Part shown: positions 4,257 through 62,539 of the stretch, piece by piece
How positions within the stretch are numbered: the stretch's first letter is position 1
Layout: every line of letters starts with the position of its first letter
Origin: Citrus sinensis
Taxonomy: Eukaryota > Streptophyta > Magnoliopsida > Sapindales > Rutaceae
NCBI RefSeq assembly: GCF_022201045.2
Contig: NC_068558.1
Coordinates: forward strand, 46,589,001-46,653,000
DNA: 64,000 bases
Direction of reading: 5' to 3'
Position numbers and translations under genes: made by a program
Notes under the pieces: generated by a model
The model's database searches: none
Seen by the model: the letters and a program-made list of their open reading frames with translations, nothing else
What the model was told of the DNA's origin: nothing

Positions 4257-4407
4257 CCGAGAAAAAGAGAAAATGTAAAAAGAGAAGGTGGTGAAGGTTA
4301 AACGAGAAGCCTGATGGGTGTGCGGTAGTGGTTGATGATGTTGAGTACGATTGGTTGCTTTGGTTGTTCGCATAAGCCACCAACCCTATCATATTCTTGC
4401 CAGGTTA

Positions 4408-19000: not shown

Positions 19001-21292
19001 TGCTCTGGGAGAACCAGCAGGCCCTTCACAACCAACAGAAGAAGTCGCTCCAGAGGTCCCAACTAGGCGCCTTGCCTATCTCAATAAGCCAGAAATTCCG
19101 GTTATTCTAGCTGGGACCATTGCAGCTATGGCTAATGGCGTTATACTTCCAGTTTATGGTCTATTAATTTCCAGTGTAATCGAAACATTCTTCAAACCAC
19201 CTCATGAACTGAAAAAGGACTCCAGGTTCTGGGCACTAATATATGTGGCCCTTGGCGCTGGATCATTTTTGCTAAGTCCAGCCCAATCATATTTCTTTGC
19301 CGTGGCTGGAAACAAGTTGATCCAACGGATAAGATCTATGTGTTTTGAGAAGGTGATTCATATGGAGGTTAGTTGGTTCGATGAGCCTGAACACTCAAGT
19401 GGCGCTATTGGTGCAAGGCTTTCAGCAGATGCAGCATCAGTTCGTGCTTTAGTTGGAGATGCACTGGCTCGGATAGTTCAAAACATTTCAACAGCAGCCG
19501 CGGGCATGATCATTGCTTTTACTGCAAGTTGGGAGTTGGCCCTTATTGTCCTTGTCATGCTTCCTCTTATAGGAGTCAGTGGATACACCCAAATGAAATT
19601 CATGAAAGGATTCAGTGCAGATGCAAAGGTATATATTTTCTGAGTCTCAAATGTTATAGCATTTACTAGCTGTTAAGCATTTCCAAGCTGCTGCTCTAAA
19701 ACTTCGTAATGATTATTTGTGAAGTTTTATGGTTTGATTTGATCATTTGGTCTTGAATTGCTGCAGATGAAGTATGAGGAAGCCAGCCAAGTTGCTAATG
19801 ATGCAGTTGGAAGCATAAGAACAGTAGCTTCTTTCTGTGCCGAGGAGAAGGTAATGCAACTTTATAAGAAGAAATGTGAAGCTCCTATGAAGACAGGGAT
19901 CAGGCAAGGGATGGTCAGTGGAGGAGGATTTGGCGCTTCTTTCTTCTTGCTGTTTGCTTTCTACGCAGCTAGTTTCTATGCCGGTGCTCGACTAGTAGAA
20001 GATGGAAAAGCCACTTTCTCAGATGTTTTTAAAGTAAGCATATCATTCGTCTCTTACGTCTATCTATCCAGTTTCCCAAAGTGGCAGATCTTTATAAACA
20101 CTAAAATGTCCCACTGATACAATGTCTTATGTTTGGTTTGCAGGTTTTCTTTTCTCTGACCATGACAGCCATAGGAATTTCTCAATCCAGCTCATTTAGT
20201 TCAGATTCAAACAAAGCGAAGAGTGCTGCTGCTTCCATTTTTGCAATCATAGACCGGGAGTCAAAAATAGACCCTAGTGATGAGTCGGGGACAATTTTGG
20301 AAGATGTAAAGGGAGAAATAGAGCTTCATCATGTAAGCTTTAAATATCCATCAAGACCGGATGTCCAGGTTTTCCGAGACCTCAACTTAAAAATTCGTGC
20401 CGGCAAGGTGAGTGCTAAGCTGAATTTTCAGTTCCATTCTTTGAAGCAGTTAACTACGCACTGTTAGAATCTAAATTACATTATTCTATTTTTTGTTCTC
20501 TCTTTCAGACTGTTGCTCTGGTTGGAGAAAGTGGGAGTGGGAAATCAACAGTAGTCTCATTGTTGCAAAGATTCTATGATCCTGATGCAGGCCACATTAC
20601 ACTTGACGGAGTTGAAATTCAAAAGCTTCAACTGAAATGGTTGAGGCAGCAGATGGGTCTAGTAAGCCAAGAACCAGTTTTGTTCAACGACACAATCCGC
20701 GCCAACATCGCATATGGAAAGGGAGGGGATGCAACTGAAGCAGAAATTCAAGCTGCATCAGAGATGGCGAATGCCCACAAGTTCATCTGTAGCTTACAAC
20801 AGGTTAGAACGAGCCGGTTACTACTGTAAGCAAATCAATATAAATATTAAAATAAGTACTGTACAGAATTGCATAACTCAATTAATGTGGGTTATACATG
20901 CTTACGCTACTCTTTTTAACCTGAAATTAATGTAGGGTTATGATACCATGGTTGGAGAGCGAGGACTCCAATTGTCAGGTGGTCAAAAGCAACGGGTAGC
21001 CATTGCACGAGCTATAGTTAAAGATCCTAAGATATTACTCTTAGATGAAGCTACCAGTGCGCTTGATGCTGAATCTGAACGGGTAGTTCAAGATGCATTG
21101 GACCGGGTAATGAAGAACAGAACCACAGTTGTGGTAGCTCATCGTTTGTCCACTATCAAGAATGCAGACATGATTGCAGTGGTCAAAAATGGAGTTATAG
21201 TGGAGAAAGGAAAGCATGAGAATTTGATTAATATTCCTGATGGATTTTATGCCTCCTTAATAGCACTTCACTCTAGTGCTTCAACTTCATGA
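16045..21292 (+). CDS. ABCB21: ABC transporter B family (P-glycoprotein) member, ABCB4/11/21-like
   Basis: Twelve coding exons with GT-AG introns encode 1293 residues: 16045-16371, 16501-16555, 16669-16844, 16945-17166, 17263-17501, 17653-18178, 18270-18543, 18748-19628, 19767-20033, 20144-20407, 20509-20802 and 20936-21292. It is a full transporter, TMD1-NBD1-linker-TMD2-NBD2. NBD1 has Walker [10 protein letters not shown] (424-432), signature LSGGQ and Walker [16 protein letters not shown]2 has [14 protein letters not shown] and the same Walker B. The linker is Ser/Arg-rich ([15 protein letters not shown]), a likely phosphorylation region. Family members sit in the plasma membrane; Arabidopsis ABCB4 and ABCB21 move auxin. 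The N-terminus before PFYKLF is acidic and variable. Which of ABCB3/4/5/11/12/21 is the true orthologue is not decided here; the symbol reflects gene neighbourhood. Confidence 0.95.
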
Positions 21293-27561: not shown

Positions 27562-28761
27562 ATGGAAACGACCGCCATTGCTCAACGCTTTCTTCCATGC
27601 ATACCTTCCGACACCGGTGACCGGTTTCCGATCAAGTATCATCTGGGTTTTGGAGATTTCAGAGTTTCAGAGCGAACCCGAAATTCTTTCAGACGATTGA
27701 GTAGTCGGTTTTCGGATTGCGGACATCAGCAGTATTATGTATCGCCAAGGAAAGAAACCAAGAAGAAAGAAAAGGAAAAGAGTTCTGAGATTAAATCAGT
27801 GAGGAAGAAATTGAAGTTTATGAAAAGATTGTCCAGTGACTTGCTCCCTCTTGAGGCTTTTGGCAACGAGGATGCAAGTAGTTTGAGGAATGAAGAAAGG
27901 ATTTCAGTAAGAACATGAACCTGTTACCTTCTTGGTGTTCTTTCGACTTTCAATTTGGTTTCTCTATTTTTCATATTTTCCAAATAAGCTATAAAAAAAA
28001 AAAAGGTATGTAAATAATCTCATGTTTCTTTGATGCAGGAAGCAGTACAAGTGCTACAAGCACAACTCTTGCAGTTGAGATCAGAGCAGAAAGAATTGAA
28101 GAAAATGATGAAAGAGAAGAAAGCACAGATTAAAACCACAATGAAGGAGAGAAAGGGTAATCGCAAATCTGGGTCATCATCGAGCTCATCATCTGAGTCC
28201 AGCGACAGTGATAATGGGGACGTAATTGACACGATCCCCTTGAGAAGTAACATTTTGAAACTATCAGAAAACATTGAAGTACAAAAGGAGATAATAGTAC
28301 CGGCTTTAGCTAAATCTGCTACTTCATTGATTCAACAAGACAAGTTGGAGGATTGCTGCTTTAGAAGTGGGGGTGAATGCAGAAATTTAAATGGCCGGAG
28401 TAACGATCAAGGCTATGGCATTGTTGAGAGGACAACCACAACAAGAACTAAGAGAATTGAGGTCTGCATGGGTGGCAAGTGTAAGAAACTAGGAGCTGGA
28501 GCTCTGTTAGAAGAATTTGAGAGGAAGGCTGGTGCTGAATGTGATGTGTCAATGTGCAAATGCATGGGCAAGTGCAGGGATGGTCCTAACCTCAGGGTTT
28601 CAAATAGTCACGATGGAGATTCAGCTATAAGAATACAGGGCTATGCTAAACCTTCGATCAATTCTCTTTGCATTGGCGTTGGTTTAGAAGATGTGGATAT
28701 GATTCTGGCAAATATTTTGGGCAAAGATATGAATAATAATTGCATGATGGCTCCTTCTTGA
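27562..28761 (+). CDS. DGAT3: Soluble diacylglycerol acyltransferase, DGAT3 type, with Fe-S ferredoxin-like domain
   Basis: Two exons, 27562-27906 and 28039-28761, encode 355 residues, close to Arabidopsis DGAT3 (about 360). The middle is a Lys/Glu-rich coiled-coil stretch (EAVQVLQAQLLQLRSEQKE, 116-134) and a Ser run. The C-terminal third is a thioredoxin-like [2Fe-2S] fold with Cys258, Cys263, Cys290 and Cys294 (VCMGGKCKK and CKCMGKCRDGP) as likely cluster ligands. DGAT3 uses acyl-CoA and diacylglycerol to make triacylglycerol. It is described as cytosolic, and Arabidopsis DGAT3 binds a [2Fe-2S] cluster. The N-terminus (METTAIAQRFLPC..., Arg/Ser-rich to about residue 50) could also serve as a plastid transit peptide, so location is open. 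The gene is divergent from NIP30. Confidence 0.9.
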
Positions 28762-30950: not shown

Positions 30951-32309
30951 TCACTCTGTCAAAAGCATTTGGCAAACCTGCCCCTCCTCGACAAGAAGAA
31001 TAACTGCATCCCTAAATTTCTCGTAATCCTCCAATGTATTATAAACCTGATGAGAAATCCTTGCATACCCTGTTATAATCCCATCTTTATCCCTAGCTCC
31101 AGCCTGAGGCTGACCATCATCCTTTGGCGCCTGATAATGAATAGGAACCTCGACTCCAAAGCGCACCCTTAAATGCCCCCTCAACCTCAAGGCATCATCC
31201 TCACCCATAACCCTCAACCTCGAAGGCAACCCAACCATAACCATTGCCGCACATATTTCAGGCGGAGACCCAAGACTTGTTCCCCAAGCATTGGCCAACA
31301 TTCTCGCCATCTTCAGGGCTTGCTCATGGTTCCTCTGCATAATCCCATCAATTCCACCCTCAAACCTACTCACAAACGTCACAGCTGAGGGTATCACAAG
31401 CTGTGCACTGTAGTCTCTAGTCCCAATCCACGCGCTCTCTATTGGCAATCCATTACCAAACTCATGTGAAACCACCGGGTGATGCATATCAGACGATAAA
31501 ATTGATTTTCTGCAATACAAGAAGGCTACAGATGGTGGGCAAAAAAACCACTTGTGCAAATTACTAACATAGAAATCGGCTCCAATTTCTTTCACATCAA
31601 TTTTAATACTACCCATAGCATGTGCCGCATCTACAAAGACCTGATCCACACCTTCATCTCTACAAATTTTAACCAATTTACGAACGGGAATCACAACACA
31701 TGGCATTGATGTAATGTGATCGATGATTGCTAACCGTATCATTTTTCCATCTTTTTTACCCTTTTCAATCCCCTTTTTAAACTCATTGATAATTTCTTCC
31801 TCCGAGGCTAACGGAAACGGTAACTGAACTTCAACAACAGACCCACCTGCACGGGTGACGTAAGCTTGGATAGATTTTTTAACGGCTTGGAAGGCGCAGT
31901 GAAGCATCAAAACGGTATCGTTTCTGTGGAACCTCCCCTCGGTAAAACCGCGGCCAATTTGCTGGAGGACGATGGCGGCAGCGGTGGTTGCGTTGTCGAC
32001 AAGTGAGATTTCGCCGACGTCATCGGCGTTGATGAGGTCCTTGACGGCGGCACGTGACTCCAGAATCCCCTTGCGGAGAGAGTTGAAGTAGAAGTCGTCC
32101 GGTTGTTGGAGGAATTTGAGCTGCCACTTTTGCTGGTCGGCGAGTACGGACTTGGGGCAGCTCCCGAAGCTCCCGTTGTTGATGCGGGCAACGCCGTGTT
32201 GGTGGTGAGAGAACTCGTCGCGGATTTCGGCTTCGGATATGCAGCGAGTGAGTTTGGGTTTTTTAGAGACGTGGTGAGTCAATTCGCCGTTTCGAGCTTC
32301 TTGATCCAT
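30951..32309 (-). CDS. LCD: L-cysteine desulfhydrase (PLP-dependent, aminotransferase class V)
   Basis: A single uninterrupted exon encodes 452 residues, matching the ~454 of Arabidopsis LCD. The start at MDQEARNGEL is preferred, since homologues begin just before KKPKL..SEAEI; the same frame is open 37 codons further upstream (ATG at 32420). Family motifs include GVARINNGSFGSCP, LVDNATTAAA, FVDAAHAMGS and SNLHKWFFCPP, with Lys253 the likely PLP Schiff-base residue. Also present are HPVVSHEFGNGLPIES and WIGTRDYS. The enzyme degrades L-cysteine to pyruvate, ammonia and H2S, a signalling source in guard cells. The N-terminal KKPK stretch fits reports of nuclear or cytosolic location. It is divergent from the SEC23-like gene and intronless, as remembered for the family. 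Confidence 0.93.
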   Translation of the reverse strand: MDQEARNGELTHHVSKKPKLTRCISEAEIRDEFSHHQHGVARINNGSFGSCPKSVLADQQKWQLKFLQQPDDFYFNSLRKGILESRAAVKDLINADDVGEISLVDNATTAAAIVLQQIGRGFTEGRFHRNDTVLMLHCAFQAVKKSIQAYVTRAGGSVVEVQLPFPLASEEEIINEFKKGIEKGKKDGKMIRLAIIDHITSMPCVVIPVRKLVKICRDEGVDQVFVDAAHAMGSIKIDVKEIGADFYVSNLHKWFFCPPSVAFLYCRKSILSSDMHHPVVSHEFGNGLPIESAWIGTRDYSAQLVIPSAVTFVSRFEGGIDGIMQRNHEQALKMARMLANAWGTSLGSPPEICAAMVMVGLPSRLRVMGEDDALRLRGHLRVRFGVEVPIHYQAPKDDGQPQAGARDKDGIITGYARISHQVYNTLEDYEKFRDAVILLVEEGQVCQMLLTE

Positions 32310-32439
32310 GGCTGATGTGTCAGAGTGAGAGTGAAGAGGGAGAGTGAAAGCAGGGGATGCAGGGTTAAAACTGAGGATAATTTTAATTTTTGGGTGCTGC
32401 GGCAACTGATGCCGTGTCACTCGCTGTGCGGAGACAGGC

Positions 32440-35083: not shown

Positions 35084-38000
35084 ATGGCTAATCCTCCACA
35101 AACTTCCCTTGGATACTCTGTTACTATCGGTCCTTCAAATCCTGACATATCATCACCTCAGCCCGAGAAAAGTCTAATTCCTCCTCCTCCAATGTCCTCC
35201 GCACCACCTAGATTTCCTCCGCCAAAGTTACAACAAGATCATATGACTTCCCCATCTATTAAAACGCCAAATTTACTGTCACCTGCAAATGGGGTAAAAA
35301 CTGGCAGCCCAATTCCTCATTTGAGCACTCCACCTGGCCCTCCTGTCTTCACTTCACCTGTTCGGCCTGCTGCTGTGCCTTTCCGGACCTCTCCTGCAAC
35401 TCCTCAGCCTGTTGCTTTGTCTTCGGGTTCATCTTTTCCTACATCTTCACCTCCCCATTTCTCCAATGGGTCAGCTGAATTGCAGCATCAAGTTCCTCAT
35501 GCTGCAGAGGAGACGATGCCTGTTGGGGAATCCTCATGTGTTTTATTCTCAGCACACAAGGTACACTAATTCTCTCTGTGCAGAGGCAAATTCATTCGTA
35601 ATGAATGATCCTGCATTTTTGTATCCAAAAATCCATCGATTCATGTACTTTATGTTGTTTCCACAATTCATCACCACTTGCTGTTTACTGAAATTTTGTT
35701 GTATAGGTGTTAAAAAAGAAGAAACAAGCTAATGTACCCAGTTTAGGTTTTGGGGCCCTGGTTTCACCAGGAAAGGAGGTTTCACCAAGTTTGCAAATAA
35801 TACAGCGTGATCCTCATCGATGCCATAATTGTGGAGCATTTGCAAACATCTATTGCAAAATATTACTTGGCTCTGGTCAGTGGCAGTGTGTAATTTGCCG
35901 GAATCTAAATGGAAGTGAAGGTGAATATGTAGCTCCCAGCAAGGAAGAACTTCGCAACTTTCCTGAACTGTCGTCGCCCATGGTTGATTATGTTCAGACT
36001 GGGAACAATAGATCCAGTTATGTTCCTGTCTCTGATTCCAGAATGTCTGCACCCATTATTCTTGTAATAGATGAGTGCTTAGATGAGCCACACCTCCAGC
36101 ATCTACAGAGCTCTCTGCACGCATTTGTTGAATCAATTCCACCTACAGCGAGAATTGGAATCATATTGTATGGTCGGACTGTTTCAGTTTATGATTTTTC
36201 AGAGGATTCAATAGCATCGTCTGATGTACTTGCTGGTGACAAATTGCCTACTGAGGACTCCTTGAAAGCTTTGCTTTATGGAACTGGAGTATACTTGTCA
36301 CCAATGCATGCCTCAAAACAAGTGGCTCATGACATATTTTCTTCACTAAGACCATATAAGTTGAACATTACTGAAGCTTCAAGAGACAGATGTCTGGGAA
36401 CAGCAGTGGAGGTTGCCCTTGCCATAATTCAAGGTCCGTCAGCTGAAATGTCTCGAGGGGTGGTTAAAAGGCCAGGAGGTAATAGCAGAATTATTGTGTG
36501 CGCTGGTGGACCTAACACTTATGGCCCTGGATCAGTCCCTCATTCTTTTAGTCATCCCAACTATCTTCATATGGAAAAGATGGCTTTGAAATGGATGGAG
36601 CTTCTAGGTCGAAAGGCTCATCAGCACAACGCTGTTATTGACATTCTATGCGCTGGAAATTGCCCTGTTAGAGTTCCTGTTTTGCAGCCTCTTGCCAAAG
36701 CTTCAGGTGGTGTGTTGGTTCTTCATGATGACTTTGGTGAAGCCTTTGGTGTGAATTTGCAAAGAGCATCCACAAGGGCTGCAGGATCCCATGGTTTCTT
36801 GGAGATACGCTGTTCTGATGATATTCTTGTAACCCAAATTGTGGGTCCTGGTGAAGAGGCACACATAGACACTCATGAAACATTTAAAAATGATGCTGCT
36901 CTCTCTATTCAAATGCCAAGCGTCGAAGAAACACAGAGCTTTGCAGTGTCCATGGAAAACAAAAGAGATATTGAGAGTAATCATGTTTTTTTCCAGTTTG
37001 CCATTAGATATTCAAATGTCTATCAAGCAGATATTTCAAGAGTAGTAACTGTCAGGTTACCCACTGTGGATAGCGTTTCAGCTTATCTCTCAAGTTTTCA
37101 AGATGAAGTGGCTGCAGTCCTTATTGCGAAGAGGACGCTTTTGCGAGCCAAAATTTTTTCTGAAGCTATTGATATGCGAACCATGATAGATGAAAGAGTT
37201 AAAGATATTGCTTTAAAATTTGGATCCCAAGTACCAAAGTCAAAGCTTTATCGGTTTCCAAAGGAACTTTCTGCTTTGTCGGAGCTCCTATTTCATCTTA
37301 GAAGGAGCCCACTTTTAGGAAATATTATTGGCCACGATGATGAGAGGTCTGTTCTACGAAATTTGTTTCTGAATGCATCCTTTGATCTGTCGCTTCGCAT
37401 GGTTGCACCTCGCTGTCTTATGTACCGTGAAGGAGGCACTTTTGAGGAGCTTCCAGCTTATGATCTTGCTATGCAGTCTGATAAAGCAGTTGTTCTTGAC
37501 CATGGCACAGATGTCTTCATTTGGTTGGTATGCTCCTCAACTCACTTTCTTTCTGTCATGGAATACTTCTTTCTTTATGTTAGTTGTGTGCAAATGCATT
37601 AATTTCATATACTCTATTTTCCTCTTCTCTGCTGCATAGGGATTCTGCATTTTTGAACAGTAGACATGGGCCTGCGTATTCATGCATTTTGAGGCCCAGT
37701 TTTTGCCTACTGTACTCCTATATCTAAATCATGGTTAGATTTCGAAAATGTGTCATATGTGGTGTATGATCAGCAAGGATTTGAGTGCACTAGGTATGGG
37801 TGTGTGAAGGGGAGCAAAAGTAGGAGCACACAGTTAATTGTTCAGTGTATTTGTGTATCAGAACATTAACAGTTTATTCTAGGTGGCAGACAGAAAGTGA
37901 AAGATTGGGATTGCATTCGTCGCTTCCCTGTTGTCTTCAGAACCTGCTTTCCTGATCATTATTTGGAAATCATTTGTGTTTTTCATTGCAAGTGGAAAGG

Positions 38001-43900: not shown

Positions 43901-46172
43901 TTAATTGGTATTGACTTTTTTTGCTTATAAATTATCTGCTCGAGGAATAGGAATGAATCCTAAAGTAAGAGAAGAAAGGATTAGCGGAATCTTGTGATAG
44001 ATCTTGTCTGATACCTTGGTGCATTTGACCTGCATTATATGTCAGCAGCAGCAGCATTGCTTTCCTTGCTTCTCTTTTCATTCATGATATTTAGAGTCCA
44101 TATTCCTGTTGGAACATGGCATTTTTTTTGTAATTAATTGCTGTTACTGTTTCCAGGTCCTTCAGATACTGGAACTCTACAGACGTATTTATGAAGAATT
44201 CTTGGCTGTTCCTGTTATAAAGGGTAAGAAGAGTGAGCTAGAAAAGTTTGCTGGTGGGCTTTACACAACGACCGTTGAGGTAACTAATAATTAACATGCT
44301 AGCTTTGGTTATCCTGCTCTGCTGTATTGGTTATCCTCTGTTGAAACTTTATATATTTGATGTGTCAGGCATTTATTCCGAACACTGGTCGTGGTATACA
44401 AGGTGCAACTTCTCATTGTTTGGGCCAAAACTTTTCAAAAATGTTTGAGATAATTTTTGAAAATGAGAAGGGAGAGAAGGCTATGGCCTGGCAGAATTCT
44501 TGGGCCTACACTACCCGAACAGTAAGACCTTTCAATATTGGTTGTTTCTTTGAGCTTGATGAGTCATTAATCTCGAGTACATTATTATTATTTTTTCCTT
44601 TGTTCTTGGGTATTCTCAGCTGAAGACGGTAAATATCCAAATATTATGTTCCTTCAGTGGTTTAATAAGATTTTCAAAATATGTTCCATATTTGTACAGA
44701 TTGGGGTTATGGTGATGGTCCATGGGGATGACAAAGGCTTGGTGCTGCCACCTAGAGTTGCATCTGTGCAAGTGATTGTTGTTCCTGTGCCTTACAAAGA
44801 TGCTGATACTCAAGGAATTTTTGATGCCTGCACTGCAACTGTAGAAACATTGTGTGAGGCAGGTATTTGTGCTAATATGGACTCAAGAGACAACTACTCA
44901 CCTGGATGGAAGTACTCACACTGGGAAATGAAAGGTGTTCCCCTTAGGATTGAAATAGGACCAAAAGACTTGGCAAAAAATCAGGTCAGGACTTTGTTGT
45001 TTTGTATGTTACTTTCACTTCCTTCAATGTTCATTATTTCCTGATATTCTTGCACTTATTGTCTTTTACATTAGTGGTGTGACTGATGAACTGGAAAATG
45101 GTGCTTATTGATTCTATCCACAGGTACGTGCTGTTCGCCGTGACAATGGAGCAAAAGTTGATCTGCCTAGGAGCTCTTTGGTTGAGCGAATAAAAGAACT
45201 TCTTGATGAGATTCAAGAAAGCTTGTTTGTTGCTGCAAAACAAAGACGGGATGCCTGCATTCAAATTGTAAAAACTTGGGATGAATTTGTGGAGGCTCTT
45301 GGCCAAAGAAAAATGATCTTAGCTCCATGGTGTGATGAGGAGGTACGTTAAGGGAAAATTGGAAATTTTATGTAAAACAAAAAATGGAAAATTTTTTTTA
45401 TGTAGAACTTTGTTTTTTGCTTCCTTGAACATTAAATTGTAAGCTCCTGGTGTTTTTCGAACTGTCAAATTATTTGTTCTGCTGATGCTTCCTTATTTCA
45501 TTGTTGTGTTGCAAGGTTTTTCTTGCTGGAACTTTCTTTTATAAGACATTTTGCACTTTAATTACTGTGTGTAGTAGAGTTTTCCTAATATATTGCATTT
45601 ATCTCTGGGCTAGTTCTATAATGAATCATCCTTTTGGATATACCTCTCCCGGGGCAGGGGATGCATATTTCTCCCAACATCTGTTGTTTTATTTTATTCG
45701 TTGTTTTTCTGTCCCCAGGAGGTGGAGAAAGATGTGAAAGCACGAACCAAGGGTGAGATGGGAGCAGCTAAGACCCTTTGTTCCCCGTTGGAACAGCCAG
45801 AAATCCCTGAAGGTACTGTCTGTCTGTCGGAATTGTTCTTTTTATATGATCTGCACTAATAATTAGAATGTATTTCAGTACTATGGGCGGATAATTTTTT
45901 CTTTAGTTGCATATCTTCAATTCTATGTTATGTTTTCCTGTACAATGGAAATGAGACTTTAACGTTCTGTTCATACTGAGCTCGTTTCAAGTGAATATTT
46001 GCTCTGCATCCGTTGAGTGATTATGGTCATTATGTGCCGATGGCACATGTTCTCAGATTTTGTTGAAATCTTTTAACTAATTTTATTTTTCTATGAAATT
46101 GATACAGGTACTCTCTGCTTTGCCTCTGGGAAGCCTGCAAAGAGGTGGAGTTACTGGGGCAGGAGTTATTAG
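40969..46172 (+). CDS. Prolyl-tRNA synthetase, cytosolic (eukaryote/archaeal-type)
   Basis: Twelve coding exons encode 511 residues: 40969-41014, 41118-41203, 42148-42240, 42331-42447, 42989-43176, 43648-43714, 44157-44279, 44369-44521, 44700-44984, 45124-45342, 45719-45812 and 46108-46172. All junctions are GT-AG with phase kept. The class II catalytic core is visible: [36 protein letters not shown] (the TSE proline-binding loop), [20 protein letters not shown], and [15 protein letters not shown]. The anticodon-binding domain ([39 protein letters not shown]) and the archaeal-type C-terminal zinc-like domain ending [10 protein letters not shown] follow. It charges tRNA-Pro. The lysine-rich N-terminus lacks a transit peptide, pointing to the cytosol. 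No fused GluRS or WHEP domain is present, unlike animal EPRS. Confidence 0.93.
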
Positions 46173-47028
46173 ATTCTGAAGCTTACCATACATTTCCTCT
46201 ATATTCCTTGGATCATGTGTTTGATTCTGAAACGAACCGCAGAGAATTGCAGCAATAGGATAGATTTTCTTTATATAATTTGTATTGGAAAGTTGGGAGA
46301 CGCACTCAGTTTTCCGTTTACTTCAATTTTTATGTTATTTTCAATTTCTCGCCTTAATTTGAAGGTTTTTCGAGCCACGAATCAAATGGTTCTTTTACTA
46401 CGAAATTTGTGCTTGGATCTTGATGTGAGATTTTAACTTGAACTGCAAATGAGAACGGGATGTTCTGCGAGGACTGGACGACTAGCTGCTTAGCACCAGT
46501 GTAGTGGCAATTTGAAAAAGAATAATCAATGGTACAAACCGCGCGGCATTGATAGGATTTATTTATATTTATGAAGATATTATTAGAAAAGGAACACAAT
46601 AAATATATTATAGAATAATTTTATTTATTTTAAATTTATACAAAATAAAGAGATGGGTTTTATTTTTATGGTTATATAATTACTATATAAAATTAATAAA
46701 AATATTATAAATTATAAGTTGTAGTGAGTGACAGTGAAAGAGACAAAAAAATGTATGTTATGATTCATATTTTTTTTGCTACTCACCTGTGTCCATATTT
46801 ATTTTAATAAATTCAGTAATAATAATTTATCATGCGGGCGAAGTGCATCATAATATTTTTTTTCTTTGGTGGCGTGTAAAATTCCACACCCTTGGATTGG
46901 ATGATACATAACATTATCACAAGGTCATCTCCAGATTTTGATTTCTGAGCCACGTCAGTAACTGAGAGTGCTCATTAGCATTATCCCAGACGAAGTCCAA
47001 AATCCAAAGCCACCAAAGTGCGGTGAAA
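46173..47028. other. ProRS 3' flank and SECA1 promoter
   Basis: The ProRS 3' UTR runs into a very AT-rich spacer (46560-46860). The SECA1 upstream region follows, with a GCCACGTCAG element (ACGT core) at about 46951-46960. No gene was seen. Confidence 0.45.
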
Positions 47029-50000
47029 ATGGCGGCAAGCCTGTGTGAGTCGCGGTTGCTAAACCAGTATCATCCCTCACTTTCGTGTTTCTCTCCAAAA
47101 TCTGTGATGGCCAACAAGAAGAAGTCTTGGAGTTGGAGTTGGGGACACCAAACGTGTAAATGGACACAGGTGAGTAGCAGAAGAAGTAGGCGGATGCGTG
47201 TAAGGGCCTCCCTTGGACTTGGAGGTCTATTAGGAGGGATTTTCAAAGGAACCGACACTGGTGAGTCTACTCGCCAGCAGTATGCTGCCACTGTTAATAC
47301 CATCAATAGTTTAGAAGCCCAATTCTCTTCCTTATCTGATTCCGACCTCAGAGACAAGACTTCCATGTTGAAGGAACGAGTCCAGCAAGGAGAATCCCTA
47401 GATTCTGTTTTACCTGTACGTTTTTTGAAATATTCAAATTTCATGCACTCTGTTCATTTCAATTTTCATTTCTTCCCCTTTTTTTCCCTTAATTTTAAAT
47501 CGAACGAAATCAGTTAGCTTGTGTTTCATTCCAGGAAGCCTTTGCTGTTGTGAGAGAAGCTTCCAAGAGGGTGTTAGGCCTCCGTCCCTTTGATGTGCAA
47601 CTCATAGGTATTAATTAATAAATTTACTTTTCAGACTTACAGTTCCAAATTATGACATGTTACAGCATGCATTTGTTTGTTTTTGTGTAGGTGGCATGGT
47701 TCTTCATAAGGGAGAAATAGCTGAAATGAGGACTGGAGAAGGAAAGACACTTGTTGCCATATTACCAGCTTATTTGAATGCACTAAGTGGGAAAGGGGTT
47801 CATATTGTTACTGTCAATGATTATTTAGCCCGAAGGGATTGTGAGTGGGTTGGTCAAGTTCCTAGATTTCTTGGTTTGAAGGTTGGCTTAATCCAGCGTA
47901 TGTCTCAATTCTTTTGTGTTCGCTGTTCTACATATCTGTTTATTTACTACTCTTGTCTTGAGTTATGAGATGATTCAGAAGACATAACAGTTACGGAATT
48001 GCTGAATTAGCTAACTGGTTGTATTGGTCTTTTGGACAGAGAGCATGACTAGTGAACAAAGAAGGGAAAATTACTTATGCGACATCACTTATGTCACTAA
48101 TAGTGAGCTTGGTTTTGATTACTTGAGAGACAATCTTGCCACGGAAAGTAATTCTTGCCTTTTGTTTTAGTTTTTCTTTGTATCATGGTATTGTGGTTAG
48201 AGACAGTCCATTGAGAACTTTTATATATATATAGTAGTTTTCTGGTCCGGGATTTTAAAGTGCAGGAAAAGTTCGGAAAAACTTTAAAACCGCGGGGTTT
48301 TAAAGGTTAAAACTTGAAGTGCTTAAACCGCACATTTTATATGTTTTCCTGGACGTTCCTGCACTTTAAACTTCCGGATTAGAATATTTCTATATATTAG
48401 TAGTTTTCTGGTCTGGGATCTTAAAGTGTGGGAAAAGTTCGGGAAAGCTTTAAAACCGCGGGATTTTAAAGGCTTAAAACTTGAAGCACTTAAACCACAC
48501 GGTTTATGCGTTTTCCCAGACGTTCATGCGCTTTAAAATTCCGGATTTGAACATTTCTATAGATATATTTATATATCATTTTGGCCTTAGTTGATTGTAC
48601 TTTCTGGCATCTACAGAGTGTTGATGAGCTTGTCTTAAGGAATTTTAATTACTGTGTCATCGACGAGGTTGATTCCATCCTTATTGATGAAGCAAGAACT
48701 CCTCTTATCATATCTGGACCAGCAGAAAAGCCTAGTGATAAATATTATAAAGCTGCGAAGATAGCCTCAGTCTTCGAACGAGATATACATTACACAGTGA
48801 GACTGCTAACCTACATTTTGTATATCATTAACACTTTAGAATTTAATTTCGTACTCAATGGCTGGTTTTAATCTTACTAATCGAGTCCTTTTACTAGTTT
48901 ACTTGTTCAACTGCAGAAGTAATAAGCTTAGTTAGAAGTCTATTTTATGATTCTTAATGTATTTTGTTTGCTTCACATTGCTGTTCCTGTAATTAATTGA
49001 TCTTATTTTTATGTTGGGGTACAAAAAGTTATGGGATAGGAGTATCCATCCATAGCAATGAATTAGAAAATGAGATTGGAAATCAACATAATACCATCAC
49101 TAATGTATACTTACAATTGTTAATTGTTATAGTAGAGGTCAATTGGAGGTGGGCAATGGTAGAACCTTGGAGCATAAGAGAGAGACACTTGTTTCATCAT
49201 GAGCTTAAATAAAATTTATGGTTTCTATAATCTGAAGTACTAGTATGATCCAAATAGGTTAAACAAAACATGGCCATTTCATATACTTGCAAGTTTATTG
49301 TTGCAGGTGGACGAGAAACAGAAAACAGTTCTACTCACAGAGCAGGGTTATGAAGATGCGGAAGAGATTTTAGATGTAAAAGATTTGTATGATCCTCGAG
49401 AACAGTGGGCATCATTTGTGTTGAATGCAATTAAAGCAAAAGAACTATTTCTAAGAGATGTAAACTATATTATCCGCGGGAAGGAAGTACTGATTGTGGA
49501 TGAGTTTACTGGTCGAGTTATGCAGGTAGTTCTTTTTCCAAGTTTTGTTCTATAGGAAACAAATGCAACTATTCTATTTTCTACTTGCTCCATGCATTAG
49601 TTCATTCCATATACTGTGGTAACAAAAAACCCTTCTTAAAGTTACAGAGTCAGTTTTATCAGATTTTCTGCAACAATATAAATTTTCAGGATGAATGATT
49701 TCTTTACTAAGAATTTAAAATTACCGATGTGCTTAAAAAGCAACTACTCGAGGAAAGAAATTCATGTTAGAGAATGTCAATTTAGAATTATTCGGGTGAT
49801 CTATTTCCTGCTCTACTTCTGTTTGATGGTTGGACAATATTCTCATCGTTGCCTTGGGGCCCATTTGATGGCCTTTTTGACTGAAATTTTGGATTATGAA
49901 GTTCACATTTGGTTTTCGTGTACCAATCTGATTCGTATAGCTTATATTTTCTAGATGCCATAGAGGATATTGGTTGATATTAGTATAAAACCTGGCGTCG

Positions 50001-53000
50001 GATGTTATTAATATTTATTATGAAATTCCCCTCCATGAAATACTTATATATCAAACATTAAGGAAACAGGGAGAGAGAATTTTATGACTATGGGCACAGT
50101 CATAATGCTGTAGTCTTTTTGGCTAGGGGAGGCGATGGAGTGATGGACTTCACCAAGCTGTTGAGGCCAAAGAAGGTTTGCCTATTCAAAATGAAACTGT
50201 AACCCTGGCATCAATTAGCTACCAGAACTTCTTTCTTCAGGTTAGACCATTCTATCTCTCAGCTCAAGAGATGGAGAATTTCTGGAAAGCTACTTTCTGA
50301 ACTTCCTAATGCTGATATGCCCCGTTACAGTTTCCAAAACTATGTGGGATGACTGGCACTGCAGCAACTGAAAGCACAGAATTTGAGAGCATCTACAAGC
50401 TTAAAGTAACAATTGTTCCTACAAACAAGCCTATGATCAGAAAGGTTAATTTTGCATGCCATCTACCTGTGACAATTTTTCAATTGATGCTAGTCTTTTG
50501 GAAGGATGGTGTGATGAAAAGAAAGTTTACAGCACAAAAAATGTTGATTTAAATTAGTAAACTGTCTGTAAGGATAGGGGTGATTTTATATTTCTTTTCT
50601 GAAATTTTGAATTGTGGGATTCGTTTGGGATTTCTACTTATTTCAGGACGTGATTTTATCATTTATTGCCTCTGAAGTCCTGTATTATATTTATAATTTT
50701 TTTGTCAGGATGAGTCAGATGTAGTTTTCAGGTCAACTACTGGAAAATGGAGGGCAGTTGTGGTAGAAATATCTAGAATGCACAAAACTGGTCAGCCAGT
50801 GCTTGTTGGAACAACAAGTGTTGAGCAGAGTGATTCACTGTCAGAACAGTTGCAAGAAGCTGGAATTCCCCACGAGGTTAGATATTTCTCGTTTGTGAAC
50901 AAAATTTGTGGCAATAAATTACTGACGTGAAGTAATGGAACTCTTTTAGAAGGACAAAAGTACTAAACAAAACCTAACTATTGTCTAAGATTCTCATAAT
51001 GAGGAAACTTAACAGATTTTTGTTTTCCTACAGGTCCTTAATGCAAAACCAGAGAATGTTGAGAGAGAAGCAGAAATTGTAGCACAGAGTGGTCGTTTAG
51101 GGGCAGTGACAATTGCTACCAATATGGCAGGTCGTGGAACTGATATTATCCTTGGTGGTAATGCTGAATTTATGGCAAGATTGAAGCTACGTGAGATGCT
51201 TATGCCAAGGTATCTTCTGATATTCATTACAATAAATTTTTTTGCAAGGGCCTCCTGATATCCATATATATTCTTACTGGTTTTTTCTGGCTCCAGCACT
51301 CTATGGATTTTTCTTAGAATAACTCTTAGGGAGGAGTTCAAACAATATACTAGTTTATTTCGTGCTAAAATGTGCATTCCATTATCTCAGAGTTGTTAAA
51401 CCAGCTGAAGGAGTTTTTGTATCTGTGAAGAAACCTCCTCCAAAGAAGACGTGGAAGGTTTGTTTGTATTGTATCCTTGAATACCTGTGCAGAGAATGCT
51501 GCAGTATCCTGTAATTTTTCTATCCTGAAACTTAAGTATTAGAAATGAAATTACAGGTGAATGAAAGTTTATTTCCATGCAAACTTTCCAACAAGAATGC
51601 CAAGTTGGCTGAGGAAGCTGTACAATTAGCTGTCAAAACTTGGGGTCAGAAATCGCTAACTGAGCTTGAGGCAGAGGAGCGTCTATCCTATTCTTGTGAA
51701 AAGGTGAAATACTGAGTTGAGAATATCAATATTGCTATATCAGATTTTTAATGGAGAATTAAACTGCAGAGATACCTCATTGATGTTTTTCCTACATGCT
51801 TCCAGTGGTAATTATTTCATCCATAAGTTATTAGATGGTTATTATCATATCTTTGTTTCTACAGGGTCCTGTTCAGGATGAAGTCATAGCCAAACTGCGT
51901 ATTGCCTTTCTAGAGATTGCTAAAGAGTATAAGGTTTATACTGAGGAAGAAAGGAAGCAGGTTAGTTTACACCCACTGGAATTTTACTTGGATTTTTCTG
52001 ATCATTGGTAATTGCAGTTTCCTTTATTTTCGCGTCACTGCAGGTTGTGTCAGCTGGTGGACTTCATGTGGTGGGAACGGAACGTCACGAATCACGCAGA
52101 ATTGACAATCAGGTTAAATTTGCAAACTAATTATCTAATCAAACTGGATAATTTTTTTTTTTTAATGTAACTCGAGAATCTTTTGCATTCTCTGGCTGTG
52201 CAGTTACGAGGTCGAAGTGGCCGACAAGGGGATCCTGGAAGTTCCCGCTTTTTCCTAAGTCTCGAAGATAACATCTTTCGAATTTTTGGTGGAGACCGTA
52301 TACAGGTTTGATCTGTGATTGCAGTGTTCTATTTGTTGATACCACTCTAGGGCATGCTTACCAAAAACTTTCTTGATTACAATTTGTAGGGTTTGATGAG
52401 AGCCTTTAGAGTTGAAGATCTACCTATAGAATCCAAAATGCTGACTAAAGCACTAGATGAAGCTCAGCGGAAAGTAGAAAATTATTTCTTTGATATTCGT
52501 AAGCAATTATTTGAGTATGATGACGTTCTCAACAGCCAGAGAGACCGTGTATATACAGAAAGAAGACGAGCCCTTGAATCCGACAATCTCCAATCTCTTA
52601 TTATTGAATATGCTGAATTGACAATGGATGACATCTTAGAGGTAAACTGTTCATGAACATTGTTAGCTAAGCTTCTATTTCTTTTCTTATCTTCTCCTTA
52701 ACCATTTTCCTTTATAACCCATGTAACCTATCCTGGAGTATTTCTAAGGTCATTTTAATGAGTAGGCAAATATCGGTCCTGACGCTCCAAAGGAAAGCTG
52801 GGATCTTGAAAAACTCATTGCGAAACTTCAACAGTAAGAACCACCCTCCTGTTTCTTTGCTTCTTAGTTTTGGAGAATCTGTATGCCTAACAAGATGAAG
52901 TCTTGAATTCAATAAGATGGATCATAATGTGTTTCATGTTATTCAATTCTTATATGCTACTGTTGTAAGTGTGTTACAGTTTCTGTGCTGTATTGAAGGG

Positions 53001-53989
53001 TGCTTTTAGTTGAATTGGTCTAAAGATGCCACTTATTGTGAATTTCCTTGTTTAATATTTGACTATAATATGATTTCACTGACAAAACTTATCACTGGAA
53101 AATAGGTACTGTTACCTGTTGAATGATTTGACCCCTGATTTACTGAGGAATAAGTGCTCAAGTTATGAGGACTTACAGGAATACCTTCGTCTTCGTGGCC
53201 GTGAAGCTTATTTCCAGAAAATGGTCAGTAGATTAGTCTCCTTGCGAATGGCTTCTCTTGGTAATGGTGTTCTTGAACACAGAACGTCTAGGGTCATGTT
53301 CTTTTTGTAAGCAAATATAACTTCTGCTGAATTGGAGTATATTACTGAGCTGACTGTTGGAGAGGACGCACTGTGCAGTTTATTTAAGATAATTAATAAA
53401 TAGGTTCTTATCATGCAGTTTTGCCTCCCATTGTGTTTCATTTCAGGATATGGTAGAGGAACAAGCGCCAGGCTTGATGAAGGAAGCTGAACGGTTCCTA
53501 ATTTTGAGCAACATTGATCGCCTATGGAAGGAACATTTACAAGCACTTAAGTTTGTGCAGCAAGCTGTTGGCCTGCGGGGATATGCACAGCGGGATCCAC
53601 TTATCGAGTATAAGCTTGAAGGCTATAATCTCTTTCTGGAGATGATGGCACAAATAAGAAGGAATGTCATCTATTCCATATATCAGGTTCAGATTAACTA
53701 GACGTATTGGCAACGTTGATTTTCAACGTTGATTTTCCACAGACGTGATCGGTTGAATGTAGTTTGTTTATTCTAATTTTCTCCATGTTGCTTTTTTTTT
53801 TTTTTTTTTAATTTTAATTTTTTTCCTTGTTTGCAGTTTAAACCCGTGCTGGTAAAGAAGGATCAGGAGCAGACTCTGACTGACAAGTCTGGCAAACTTG
53901 TCACAAATGGCAGGGGTGGTAATAAGGAACCCGATCCAGCTGCTGTTGAGTCATCGTCATCAGTTTCCAGTCCCCAAGCTAGTGCGTAA
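47029..53989 (+). CDS. SECA1: Chloroplast protein translocase subunit SECA1
   Basis: Sixteen separate coding blocks by codon total span 20 exons, about 1017 residues (Arabidopsis SECA1 is about 1022). Exons: 47029-47415, 47535-47607, 47691-47897, 48040-48143, 48617-48796, 49307-49525, 50127-50240, 50331-50444, 50709-50876, 51034-51209, 51391-51457, 51557-51703, 51865-51960, 52044-52112, 52204-52305, 52390-52641, 52766-52833, 53106-53223, 53447-53686 and 53837-53989. A transit peptide rich in Ser/Arg ends near RVRAS (about 55-60). Walker A is TGEGKT (168-173), Walker B/DEAD-like is DEVD (273-276), and [16 protein letters not shown] is the arginine-finger motif. SECA1 is the ATPase that drives proteins through the thylakoid SECY/SECE channel. 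The junction after 48143 is abnormal: the donor reads GA instead of GT. Confidence 0.93.
48144..48616 (+). other. SECA1 intron 4 with non-canonical GA donor
   Basis: The conserved protein ([17 protein letters not shown]) requires joining 48143 to 48617, but the intron then starts GAAAGT, not GTAAGT, and ends CTACAG. A GT four bases downstream (48148) paired with the TTAG acceptor ending at 48590 would instead add exactly 30 nt. This encodes [10 protein letters not shown] in frame. The same GT with the normal acceptor causes a frameshift and early stop. Confidence 0.7.
48232..48563. repeat. Tandem pair of ~166-bp foldback units in SECA1 intron 4
   Basis: Unit 1 (48232-48397) and unit 2 (48398-48563) are close copies, both starting TAGTAGTTTTCTGGTC and ending with TTCCGGATT...TTTCTAT. 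Each unit folds on itself: CCGGGATTTTAAAGTGCAGG-like sequence at the left matches the complement of CCTGCACTTTAAACTTCCGG-like sequence at the right. A central palindrome surrounds CCGCGG (CTTTAAAACCGCGGGGTTTT). This looks like a MITE duplicated in tandem. It was inserted within the intron, 54 bp before the conserved acceptor. Confidence 0.85.
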
Positions 53990-54578
53990 GGTTGATATTG
54001 GAAAAACATTTATAAAAAATTTGAGAAGGAATAGGATACTCCTGGTCCTGGAATTTAATTTTGCTCTGAAGGTGTATAGCCTGTATCAATTATGAGGTAG
54101 AAGAATTCTGGTCCGTGTACATCAGGATCTTGTTTATTGTACATTAGAGCAAGCAGATACAGAAATTAAGAGGAAACGAATTTTAGAATTTATTGTACAC
54201 TCTGATTTAGACTTTATTGCATTGTACTAATACGAAATGCGAAGATTAATGAAAGCCCAAAATAATTTTTGCTGCTTTGGCTGTCTCAAAAGCTCCAACA
54301 ACAGTTTCTCATCAATAAGATGTCTTGGATGCTCTCTCCTTCGACGGTGAGGAATGTGACCAGCTCAGACATGATGGAAAGTGCAGAGCAGTTGGAAACC
54401 CATGGCTTTGAACGCATTTTGCAAACCTGACGGCCTTGAGGAGTAATTCAATTTGTCTTCATCTGACTCTGAGAATGACTCAAAACAAATCTATATAGCT
54501 TTGTCTGTAGTTTTAGTTCATTCCAAAGTTCAATTCAATCGCGTATCCACTACTGCTTTGTAGCATATAACTGACAGG
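53990..54578. other. Convergent 3' flanks of SECA1 and the L7Ae-family gene
   Basis: The probable 3' UTRs of two convergent genes meet here. No other feature was seen. Confidence 0.5.
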
Positions 54579-56556
54579 TTATTGACGGGGTGCTTCCGGT
54601 GTCTCAGACAACTTGAGGAGATCTACTTCATCACCATGAAGAATTTTGTCCATGAGTTGATTTATGATATTTCCTTTAGCCTGAGTCAAGTCAGATAATC
54701 AATCAAATATTTAAATTAGAAAAAGAACTTTAACTGCAAATGACGATCATGATTGACAATGGGAGATATAATATCCAAGATCATGACCGGTTACCTTTAT
54801 CCCAACAGCAATTGCCGTTTTTAGCTTGACGAGTTCACCTAATCTTAAAGATCCACCTTTTTTATCTTTAACAAATATCACAGGGACGTTCCTTGATAAA
54901 GCCAAGCCTGGTAGATGCTTTATTAACCATCGTGGGTTGCAATCAGCAGCTAACAAAATGACCTTCGAGCTCAAAGCAAGATTCATTAGCATCCTTGTAT
55001 CATAACTAACAAGATATTTCAAGAAACAGAGTTATGTCCTCAAACATACATAGACCACAACAAAGACATTAATTTGCTTCGATATATAGACAACTTGATG
55101 GATGGTACTGAATCAGGATGTCTATCTCTAGTGGTAAGAGATGCCGGGGCAAGCCACAGGTTCTAATGCTGGAAATGGGTATTGAACATGATCTGGAGAT
55201 GGAACTGCTGCTCCGAGAGCAGGTTTCAACTCTCAGCATGACTCTTTGTCCCAGCCTTGAAGAGACATAATTTTGCTTAGATATACAGACAACTTCTTGA
55301 TGAATAGTACAACTTAATGTGCAGGTATCATGTCTCAACCAACATATTTAAATTAATAATTGACGTTGTTCTAAACAAAGGAATCATCAATCATCTGGAT
55401 TAGATCATTAACTAACTACAAAGCTCTGTGCAACAACAATCGGCTTATAAATGCATATTAAGTGATGGAAAAAGTAGCGAACAAGATATATTGTGTATCA
55501 CGGGTCACGACTGATAACAGACGATGTTGAGAATCATGATTTGAATCCCTAAAGAGCTCGCAGTCAAATAAACCGAAGCAATACATGTTCCAGAACTACA
55601 GCTGGCTGAAATTAACTTTGAGATTATGATGCTACTATCATTTAATCCTCAGCCACTATCATATAGTAAGCCATTTTACAAAAATGCATCATTCCTCATC
55701 AAATCAAGACTTCAATTACACTTAAAATGACATGCTTGAAACATGGAAGTACCTACATAGGCGTAGTCTCTAGGAAAATCAAATCATAACATTATGGAAA
55801 ATCTAAAGAAAATCTAATTACCTGAAGCTGAACCGAAGGCACTTTACTGTTGCCACATAAGATATGAGGTTGCTGAGGAAAGATTCCCATATTGGCTCTT
55901 GGTGCCATCCTCTCAAGCACACGGGTAACTTCATTGACCCCAATTGAGAATTGTTGCTAATTAACATTCCATTCATTAGATACAAGAAAAACATACTCAA
56001 TTCATCATACACAATAATGCAGGGTTTACTCAGGAATTAGAATCCCTTAGTTATAAAGATTTTTATTATTCTATCCGAGGAATGTTATTTTTGCATGCAA
56101 GGCTCCAATAAGAATCAATAAAACTGAAATTTTGAATGCTGTAACAAACCTTGAACCACAATTTTTCAGGTAAAGAGTCTCCATGCAAACTTCGAGCTGA
56201 AACTATCTCCCTGATATAAATTAATTTAAAAAAAGGGTGGCAAGTTATGTGCTTGTCTAAATTTATAGCATCAGTGAAAAAGTACAAGTACTCTTTGAAG
56301 TTGTTCTGAAATAAATTATTATGTTACCTCTGAATCAATTTGAGCAAACGAACTAGACTTTCCCCTTCATAGCATCTGTACATAAGAAAAAATATCAATT
56401 TTAATCAAAATAAAATTTTTAAAAAAAAAAAAGAAGAAGAAACAGAAGAACCCCATATAACAGAAAACTGACATACTCTGATTCTTGAGGAACAGAATTT
56501 GGTGGCTTTGAGACATCATGAACAAGCTTTCTGCTGGCCCTTTTCCCTCCCTGCAT
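54579..56556 (-). CDS. Ribosomal L7Ae/L30e/S12e/Gadd45-family protein
   Basis: Six minus-strand exons give 197 residues: 56556-56477, 56375-56328, 56210-56150, 55956-55822, 54962-54795 and 54680-54579. The central part matches the L7Ae-type RNA-binding fold: FSIGVNEVTRVLERM, VILLAADCNPRWLIKHLPGL, NVPVIFVKDKK, LGELVKLKTAIAVGIK. Proteins of this fold bind kink-turn RNA in ribosomes, snoRNPs and RNase P/MRP. The short length and divergent sequence suggest an RNase P/MRP subunit-like (Rpp38-type) or orphan family member, not ribosomal L7Ae itself. A basic N-terminus (MQGGKRASRKL) precedes the fold. The acceptor at 54963 (TCGAAG) was chosen for reading phase and fold continuity; it is the least certain junction. 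The 860-bp intron before it holds a repeat-flanked segment. Confidence 0.8.
55071..55310. repeat. Direct repeats flanking a unique segment inside an L7Ae-gene intron
   Basis: Sequence at 55071-55108 (TTTGCTTCGATATATAGACA, then ACTTGATGG) recurs at 55269-55310 (TTTTGCTTAGATATACAGAC, then AACTTCTTGATG) as an imperfect direct repeat of about 38-42 bp. The ~160 bp between is GC-richer. On the minus strand it keeps a ~32-codon open frame rich in Pro and Ala (VPSPDHVQYPFPALEP). It may be a captured or duplicated fragment. Confidence 0.5.
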
Positions 56557-59980: not shown

Positions 59981-62539
59981 ATGAGGAGATCTTTTACTGT
60001 GAGTTGCTTCATCTTTGATTAATTCTTCTTGCTTCTTTTCTTTGTTCTGCTTTGCTTCTTACTTCTTCTCTGTATGTAACGCTCAGAATTTACAAAAATA
60101 TCTGAAATTAGTTTTCAAGATGAATCATTCACCGGCACCCTGAGATGAATCGTCTAAATTCAGCCGCAAATTATATTATTAAGGGCAACTTTGAAGTCAG
60201 TTTCAGTCTGATCGATCAAAACTGTTTCCATTTTTCAGTTATTTGTTTATTTATTATTATTATTTTTATGACTATTGATTCCGCCTTCTGTATTCTGTGT
60301 GGCTCTTCTTGGTTTATTATCTCTTAGGCAAAATGTGGCTCATTTCATCAGCTTTCCTACATGATAAATTACAATGTAGCTGATTAAGACCTCAAATTAA
60401 GTTGAAAATTTAGTATAATTAATCCCTTTTCAAAATGTTCCCTTTTTTAGCTGGTGGATGTGTTTCTGGTACTTGCATTATTTAGTGAAGCTCCATGGGC
60501 TGTCGCGGGCAGCTCACAATGTAGTCAAAGCAATTTAGAGGTATTTCGGCCTCATAGTGTCTCTATCACTGAATTTGGAGCTGTCGGAGATGGTGTCACT
60601 CTAAACACCAAAGCCTTTCAGAATGCAATCTTCTATCTCAATTCATTTGCAGACAAGGGTGGGGCCAAGCTTTTTGTCCCAGCTGGCCAGTGGTTGACAG
60701 GTAGCTTCGATCTCATCAGTCATCTAACTTTGTGGTTAGACAAGGATGCAGTAATTCTTGGATCCACGGTAAGCTCCCTTTTGCAATCTCTTTATTGTCT
60801 AGAAGGACATATGCTCTTGAATCTTCAGTATTCAGTTTGCCTCTCTTTGCTTGGAGTCTTTGCAATTAAATCATGGCTATGAAATATTAATATATGGAAT
60901 TGTCAGGATATTTTTCAATGTTTATGATGTGAAAGTTGCATTTAGCTCCTTTTCAGTAAATCATGCTCTATGGGCAAAGGGTATTAAATTATGCAAGAAT
61001 CCAAGGTTTCGTGTGATCATAATGCTTCAATTTCTAGTTGAGGAACATTTTCAAAATCTGAAATGGTTCATTTTCAAGACCAATGTGGCTGTGGTCTGCT
61101 GTGACATTGAGGCTATTTGTAATTATGTTAGCACATTATGCTAAATGATTTATCCTTTTTTTTTTCAGAACTCGGACACTTGGCCGGTTATTGATCCTCT
61201 ACCATCATATGGCAGAGGTAGGGAGTTGCCTGGTGGAAGGCATCGGAGCCTCATTTTTGGACGCAATTTGACAGATGTGGTCATAACAGGTTGACTATTT
61301 TGACAAAGAGCTTAGATAAATATATTGTCTGTTTTCTTGACGCCGCCTATCACTCTATGCAGGTGATAATGGAACTATTGATGGTCAAGGCAGCATCTGG
61401 TGGGAATGGTTTCGAAATGGAACACTGGATTACACCCGACCTCATCTGGTTGAATTGATGAACTCGACTGGGGTTATCATCTCAAATTTGACCTTCTTAA
61501 ATCCACCATTTTGGACCATCCATCCTGTATACTGCAGGTTGGTTCTTTCTCTAAACATATTCTTATTAATTTCTGTCTGCTGGGTTCAAATATTCTTCTT
61601 TCCAAATTTAACTGTACGACGGTGGAGCTTTTACTTAATTCGGGGGAGAGTTGAGACTGTTTTTCTGGTTGAACAGCCATGTTAAAGTGCAGAATGTCAC
61701 AATCCGTGCCCCACTTGATTCACCAAACACAGATGGGATTGATCCAGGTGAGCATCTTCTACTAATCTGAATATCTCCATTATGCAAATTGGTGTTTTCT
61801 AACATAATGAGGTTTGGTCCTCTACATTTATATGCATCCAGACTCTTCTGACGATGTCTGCATTAAAGACTGTTATATTAGCACTGGCGATGATCTGGTT
61901 TCCATCAAAAGTGGGTGGGACGAGTATGGTATTTCATATGGTCGGCCAAGTACAAAAATTACCATCCATGGACTCATTGGAGAAACTAAATTGGGTGCGG
62001 GGATTGCAATAGGAAGTGAGATGTCTGGAGGTGTATCAGAAGTTCATGCAGAGAACCTGTACTTTTTCAACTCAGTCAGGGGTATTAGGATAAAGACATC
62101 TCCTGGAAGGGGTGGCTATGTGAGAAATATCTCTATCTCAAATGTGACCTTAAATCACGTAGATGTAGCTATAATATTTACTGGTCACTTTGGGGAGCAT
62201 CCAGATGATTCGTATGATCCAAGTGCTCTTCCCATAATAGAAAGGATTACCATAAAAAATGTCATTGGGGAGAATGTAAAAATGGCAGGCCAGCTAGAAG
62301 GTATAGAGGGGGACACTTTTCGTTACATTTGCTTGTCAAACATTAAGCTCAATGGAGTTTCAGAGTCTCCATGGAATTGCTCCTATATTCAAGGATATTC
62401 TGACTTGGTTTTCCCAGAAACCTGTGATCCTCTGAAGGAGAGTATCTTTCCCATGCATCACTTAGATTGTTACGATCTATCCAATCATTTTAGGAGTTCA
62501 AGAAATCAAAAAAGACTTGCTCGGTTATTATCTTGGTAA
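59981..62539 (+). CDS. GH28 polygalacturonase-like protein
   Basis: Six coding exons encode 466 residues: 59981-59998, 60451-60768, 61169-61289, 61363-61537, 61677-61747 and 61842-62539. The first exon holds only six codons (MRRSFT), and with exon 2 forms a secretion signal (MRRSFTLVDVFLVLALFSEA). The protein is therefore likely secreted to the cell wall. Pectin-lyase-fold motifs include FGAVGDGVTLNTKAFQNAI near the N-terminus, NTDGID (228-233), TGDDLVSIKSG (249-259) and RIK (317-319). The third classical motif, G-H-G, is replaced by SGGVSE, as in a known plant subgroup. The catalytic aspartates D230, D251 and D252 are present. Polygalacturonases hydrolyse homogalacturonan; the exact specificity of this subgroup is not settled. 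Confidence 0.9.

Follow-up and report, generated by a model that had tools for sequence, protein, structure and literature searches.

The closest described relative of the intron reported here lies in the AGY1 gene of Arabidopsis (At4g01800, equated with SECA1 in a table of the barley SECA1 paper, PMC11865152). Pucker and colleagues (2017) Sanger-sequenced a cDNA of this gene and obtained 20 exons with a GA-AG intron 4; they call the GA-AG isoform strongly expressed, state that ab initio prediction missed the intron, and state that the representative transcript, which is the one with the longest coding sequence, does not use the non-canonical pair (PMC5716242). Annotated GA-AG introns number 0 to 14 per genome in five plants, and another functional plant example, SYMRK intron 12 of Trema orientalis, is about 95% spliced (PMC10668435). 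A U2-like, evolutionarily conserved GA-AG intron is described in human FGFR, where the GA site reportedly depends on a GT 6 nt upstream (PMC4176328), and GA-AG introns with an A after the donor are found in Eurytemora affinis and Oikopleura dioica (PMC7072748).

The SECA1 gene in the Citrus sinensis window (the whole 64,000-nucleotide stretch analysed) also has GA-AG at intron 4. It and Arabidopsis AGY1 are the same gene, with 20 exons each, the same intron number and GA-AG in both, but they belong to different species, and a dispersed element is present twice within the intron of the window gene (below). Trema SYMRK is an unrelated gene whose GA donor, found in Malaysian Borneo accessions, was derived from a GC donor (PMC10668435). 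The upstream GT of the FGFR type has no counterpart in 48130–48143, the 14 bases before the donor; a GT lies instead 4 nt downstream. The A after the donor is shared with Eurytemora and Oikopleura, but there GA-AG introns are common and preceded by AG (PMC7072748), whereas here the exon ends in CG and no other of the gene's 19 introns is GA-AG. We conclude, with a probability of roughly 0.86, that SECA1 intron 4 is a true GA-AG intron of the U2 type and shares its descent with that of Arabidopsis SECA1 (AGY1).

The SECA1 gene and the junction that its protein requires

The gene model was built by hand from window positions 46000–56000, and genome-wide searches used a genome of 299.7 Mb in 11 contigs, with the window at 46589001–46653000 of contig C3. 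The features of the gene and its fourth intron are as follows.

47029..53989, + strand: SECA1 coding region, 20 exons, 1017 aa (hand-built model, frame open throughout)
48040..48143, + strand: exon 4, ending ...DYLRDNLAT in phase 0 (gene model)
48144..48616, + strand: intron 4, GA-AG, 473 nt (sequence, gene model and the Arabidopsis orthologue in PMC5716242)
48141..48151, + strand: 5' splice site ACG/GAAAGTAA, with U1 pairs at -1, +1 and +3 to +7 and a mismatch at +2
48222..48576, + strand: dispersed MITE-like element with inverted repeats, present as two copies arranged head to tail (genome matches and repeat structure)
48591..48595, + strand: putative branch point TTGAT, whose A at 48594 lies 22 nt upstream of the acceptor (pattern match only)
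48615..48616, + strand: 3' splice site, CTACAG (sequence, gene model)
48617..48796, + strand: exon 5, beginning AGT (gene model)

Exon 1's reading frame matches Pfam SecA_DEAD, and 282 residues encoded by exons 1–6 match SecA chains in the PDB. The model carries TGEGKT (Walker A) and DEVD with no insert before DEVD, as expected of the SecA motor of plastid SECA1, and the gene is the predicted plastid SecA motor SECA1. Its loss kills seedlings in barley, where the gene has 19 exons, one fewer than here (PMC11865152). Elsewhere in the window, Pfam assigns open frames to an ion channel (3228–4385, - strand), the Transferase family (6671–7552), an ABC transporter (17645–19640), a class V aminotransferase (30954–32438, - strand), Sec23/Sec24 (35707–37599) and glycosyl hydrolase family 28 (61811–62536, + strand). 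A 247-residue open frame at 28018–28758 (+ strand), cysteine-rich in its C-terminal part and without a Pfam match, presumably resembles the soluble DGAT3 / 2Fe-2S type.

GT-AG borders occur at 18 of the 19 SECA1 introns, all but intron 4; sequence and gene model thus agree with the earlier note, which had pointed to a GA where GT is expected. Exon 4 ends ...CTTGCCACG at 48143, intron 4 then starts GAAAGTAATT with an A at 48145, and exon 5 opens AGTGTTGATGAG at 48617 directly after the CTACAG that ends at 48616. The first six bases of the intron, GAAAGT, are a single base away from GTAAGT. Shifting the boundaries by one base to read GG-CA would give an identical mRNA, so that cDNA alone cannot separate the two, but GA-AG is the sensible reading since it keeps an AG acceptor.

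That exon 4 must be joined to exon 5 at exactly these positions follows from the protein. The stretch between the N of RDN and the DE.DS motif that follows measures 19 residues in the window gene and in all 23 bacterial SecA loci compared (22 measured by script and one, L043, by eye). PDB searching matched 25 sequences, for three of which alignments were displayed; two of these run from RDN to DE.DS without a gap, and 2ipc has a three-residue insert further along, after LVLRN. A SECA2-like gene on contig C5 likewise has no insert at the junction site, is interrupted by its intron at another position, and by eye seems to be three residues longer further along. As no insert is present in relatives, the ordinary SECA1 protein needs 48143 joined to 48617 (NLAT/SVDELV), which is the junction that had been claimed beforehand from conservation. 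No spliced retrocopy recording the junction was found in a genome search with the protein of exons 1–6 (390 of 1017 aa), whose eight matches are SECA1 itself (six) and the SECA2-like gene (two). GA at the 5' end of intron 4 and AG at its 3' end are therefore given by sequence and by a protein-forced junction.

The repeat copies inside the intron are spaced 166–167 nt apart and have inverted arms of 63 nt with 75% identity. Scoring of 40 out of 460 candidates gave at least 74 genome match entries for the element; 72 of these lie elsewhere in the genome, where some places are counted on both strands and some entries span one unit and others two.

Pairing of the GA donor and the competing GT

Duplex energies were calculated with the 5' end of ordinary U1 snRNA. 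The GA donor forms a duplex of -6.2 kcal/mol, which ranks 8th among the 19 SECA1 donors and surpasses 11 of the 18 with GT; apart from its GA, it thus has the good complementarity to ordinary U1 that is typical of the class. On the SECA1 sense strand only 8 of 482 GA dinucleotides match the donor consensus at seven or more of 11 positions, and the coincidence of the protein-demanded junction with a donor having a single U1 mismatch is beyond chance. When the register is not fixed, 7 of the 482 GAs outrank the intron 4 site by U1 energy. One of the eight consensus-like GAs, in exon 16 at 52469, shares the GGAAAGTA core of the intron 4 donor, has equal U1 energy and is not used as a donor in the gene model. 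Since this exon 16 copy shows no sign of use and seven GAs rank higher, U1 pairing or motif alone is insufficient to define a splice site.

The sequence context suggests how the remaining steps could be shared out: the exon-side CG in place of AG would pair weakly with U5, and A at +3, A at +4 and G at +5 would pair strongly with U6. We propose that ordinary U1 snRNA recognises the donor by seven pairs flanking the one mismatch at +2, that, as we infer for the U6 step, the AAGT at +3 to +6 is next well matched to the U6 ACAGA box, and that G at +1 together with the CAG acceptor would permit normal catalysis. The product would be the standard 1017-residue SECA1.

Two other ways of accommodating the donor were considered and are not favoured. 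RNA structure exposing the GA donor is unsupported, because when exons 4 to 5 are folded the unpairedness of the donor equals the intron mean (0.29 against 0.29) and its accessibility is no better than the intron average. A U12-type intron is made unlikely by the lack of a U12 donor signal in intron 4 (3 of 9 matches), but a U12 branch-like TTAGTTGAT in the intron agrees with the consensus at 7 of 9 positions, lacking the CCTTAAC core.

Downstream of the GA donor lie two sites that together offer a canonical alternative.

48148..48149, + strand: GT in competition with the GA donor, 4 nt further downstream
48589..48590, + strand: alternative AG; with GT 48148 in frame, 1027 aa, ten-residue insert, no stop

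This alternative splice from the 48148 GT to the 48590 AG, adding ten residues, had been described in the earlier note and proved exact. Other uses of the region truncate the protein: GT 48148 with the acceptor at 48616 gives a stop at codon 261, the same GT with the AG at 48618 a stop at codon 265, and retention of intron 4 a stop at codon 266. GT 48148 would thus compete with the GA donor in two ways, leading to an immediate stop with the normal acceptor or to ten extra residues with AG 48590.

Site strengths were also scored with a weight matrix, which is small (trained on 18 donors and 19 acceptors of the gene). GT 48148 scores 4.5, an average donor near the middle of the range that the gene's own donors span with each left out in turn (-1.0 to 10.6), and AG 48590 scores about 0.0, slightly below the 1.2 of the normal acceptor when it is left out. 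There are 74 stop-free, in-frame donor/acceptor pairs, and among the 15 displayed all except GA-AG change the protein. The matrix places GA 48143 to AG 48617 first of the 74 (10.4), with the acceptor within its own training set; with the left-out acceptor value of 1.2 the pair falls to about 5.6 and is no longer first, and the matrix understates the GA penalty. The second-ranked pair joins GT 48148 to an AG inside exon 5 (10.0) with a net deletion of 35 residues that include DEVD. Because of the acceptor's self-training, the understated GA penalty and this DEVD-deleting runner-up, the matrix ranking is given no weight here, and the individual scores mean that site strength by itself leaves the isoform made from GT 48148 and AG 48590 in contention.

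Alternative explanations

The most substantial competitor is that the main mRNA uses GT 48148 and AG 48590, so that SECA1 carries ten additional residues, 15 residues before DEVD. Its reading frame is open, and in the small weight matrix its GT is an average donor and its AG falls just short of the left-out normal acceptor (above); moreover, since the representative Arabidopsis transcript is spliced without the non-canonical pair, the annotation of that species evidently includes a longer canonical isoform (PMC5716242), which keeps the ten-residue option alive. Against it as the main product stand the weak U1 pairing of the GT (-3.2 kcal/mol, where 16 of the 18 GT donors pair more strongly), the lack of such an insert in all 23 bacterial relatives, and the cDNA of the Arabidopsis GA-AG isoform, which is called strongly expressed (PMC5716242). 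A nine-codon open stretch before the acceptor would, in addition, often be expected by chance. We therefore regard this isoform as an unlikely main product, and the competing GT 48148 is probably minor.

A donor one base off GTAAGT could in principle reflect a wrong base in the assembly, or a GT donor recently damaged in this allele. The remainder of SECA1 is intact, however, and cDNA shows GA-AG at the intron of the same number in Arabidopsis (PMC5716242), which makes an error or a weak allele very unlikely. Of the four options raised at the outset, the Arabidopsis cDNA thus favours a genuine GA-AG intron and speaks against both the base error and the weakened allele, and the ten-residue isoform stays on the list at the low weight just given. 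Least probable of all, in our estimation, is that the donor is served by a variant U1 snRNA encoded in the genome, as has been proposed for Eurytemora affinis, where a C to T variant is invoked for GA donors, the passages concerned giving no position for it (PMC7072748). Twelve U1 loci lie above the Rfam cut-off (42 of 4306 first-look candidates scored), and all 12 retain the canonical A and C at positions 7 and 8, so that none holds a compensating change. Four lower matches include one unreadable fragment and a degenerate locus, L023, which has T at positions 8 and 9 where C is canonical, but which differs at several further positions and resembles a pseudogene. Variant 5' ends were seen in L014, L018, L019, L020 and L023, for example TTACATACCTG in L018.

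A genuine GA-AG intron accordingly remains our preferred reading, and a further idea concerns why its donor might persist. The GA and GT lie four bases apart, and with the normal acceptor only the GA would yield functional mRNA, the GT leading to an immediate stop. Selection might conceivably have kept the GA donor as a throttle by which the state of the spliceosome (e.g., U6 m6A placed by FIO1) sets SECA1 output, with the longer canonical isoform as a side product; we offer this as a speculation that we consider doubtful. Arabidopsis sites sensitive to FIO1 loss carry GURAG (PMC9803359, 2022), and we predict that the SECA1 GA site will respond as they do.

Apparent orthology with the Arabidopsis intron and its meaning

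The primers of PMC5716242 agree with the window gene at 18 of 22 bases in exon 3, at 20 of 24 in exon 5 and at 22 of 28 across the exon 5/6 join, and from these positions the corresponding amplicon covers introns 3 and 4 here. On the basis of intron number, exon count and primer positions, intron 4 is apparently orthologous to the GA-AG intron of Arabidopsis AGY1, and it very probably belongs to a rare class that is already described, with the Arabidopsis intron as its documented orthologue. From this we infer that the intron is spliced as GA-AG in Citrus sinensis and that the GA base is of common descent in the two species.

The Arabidopsis case was already known, and what is new is the apparent conservation in a second plant. 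Among the literature matches listed, a scope that leaves aside supplements and most subscription papers, there is no mention of a GA donor in another plant's SECA1. The barley SECA1 paper contains no word beginning with “splic” (PMC11865152); the main text of PMC9803359 does not mention SECA1, AGY1 or At4g01800; the main text of a plant-wide survey (PMC6310983) contains no GA-AG, SecA or At4g01800; and the available passages of a mulberry methylation paper (PMC8780187) hold nothing on SECA1 splicing.

For annotation the intron is a warning, in that GA-AG introns can be missed by ab initio prediction (PMC5716242) and mis-set by read mappers, which may place a false GT-AG over a GA-AG (PMC4176328). 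For the biology of splicing, a GA donor that a second plant apparently has in common with Arabidopsis suggests a spliceosome able to retain GA at a donor over long times.
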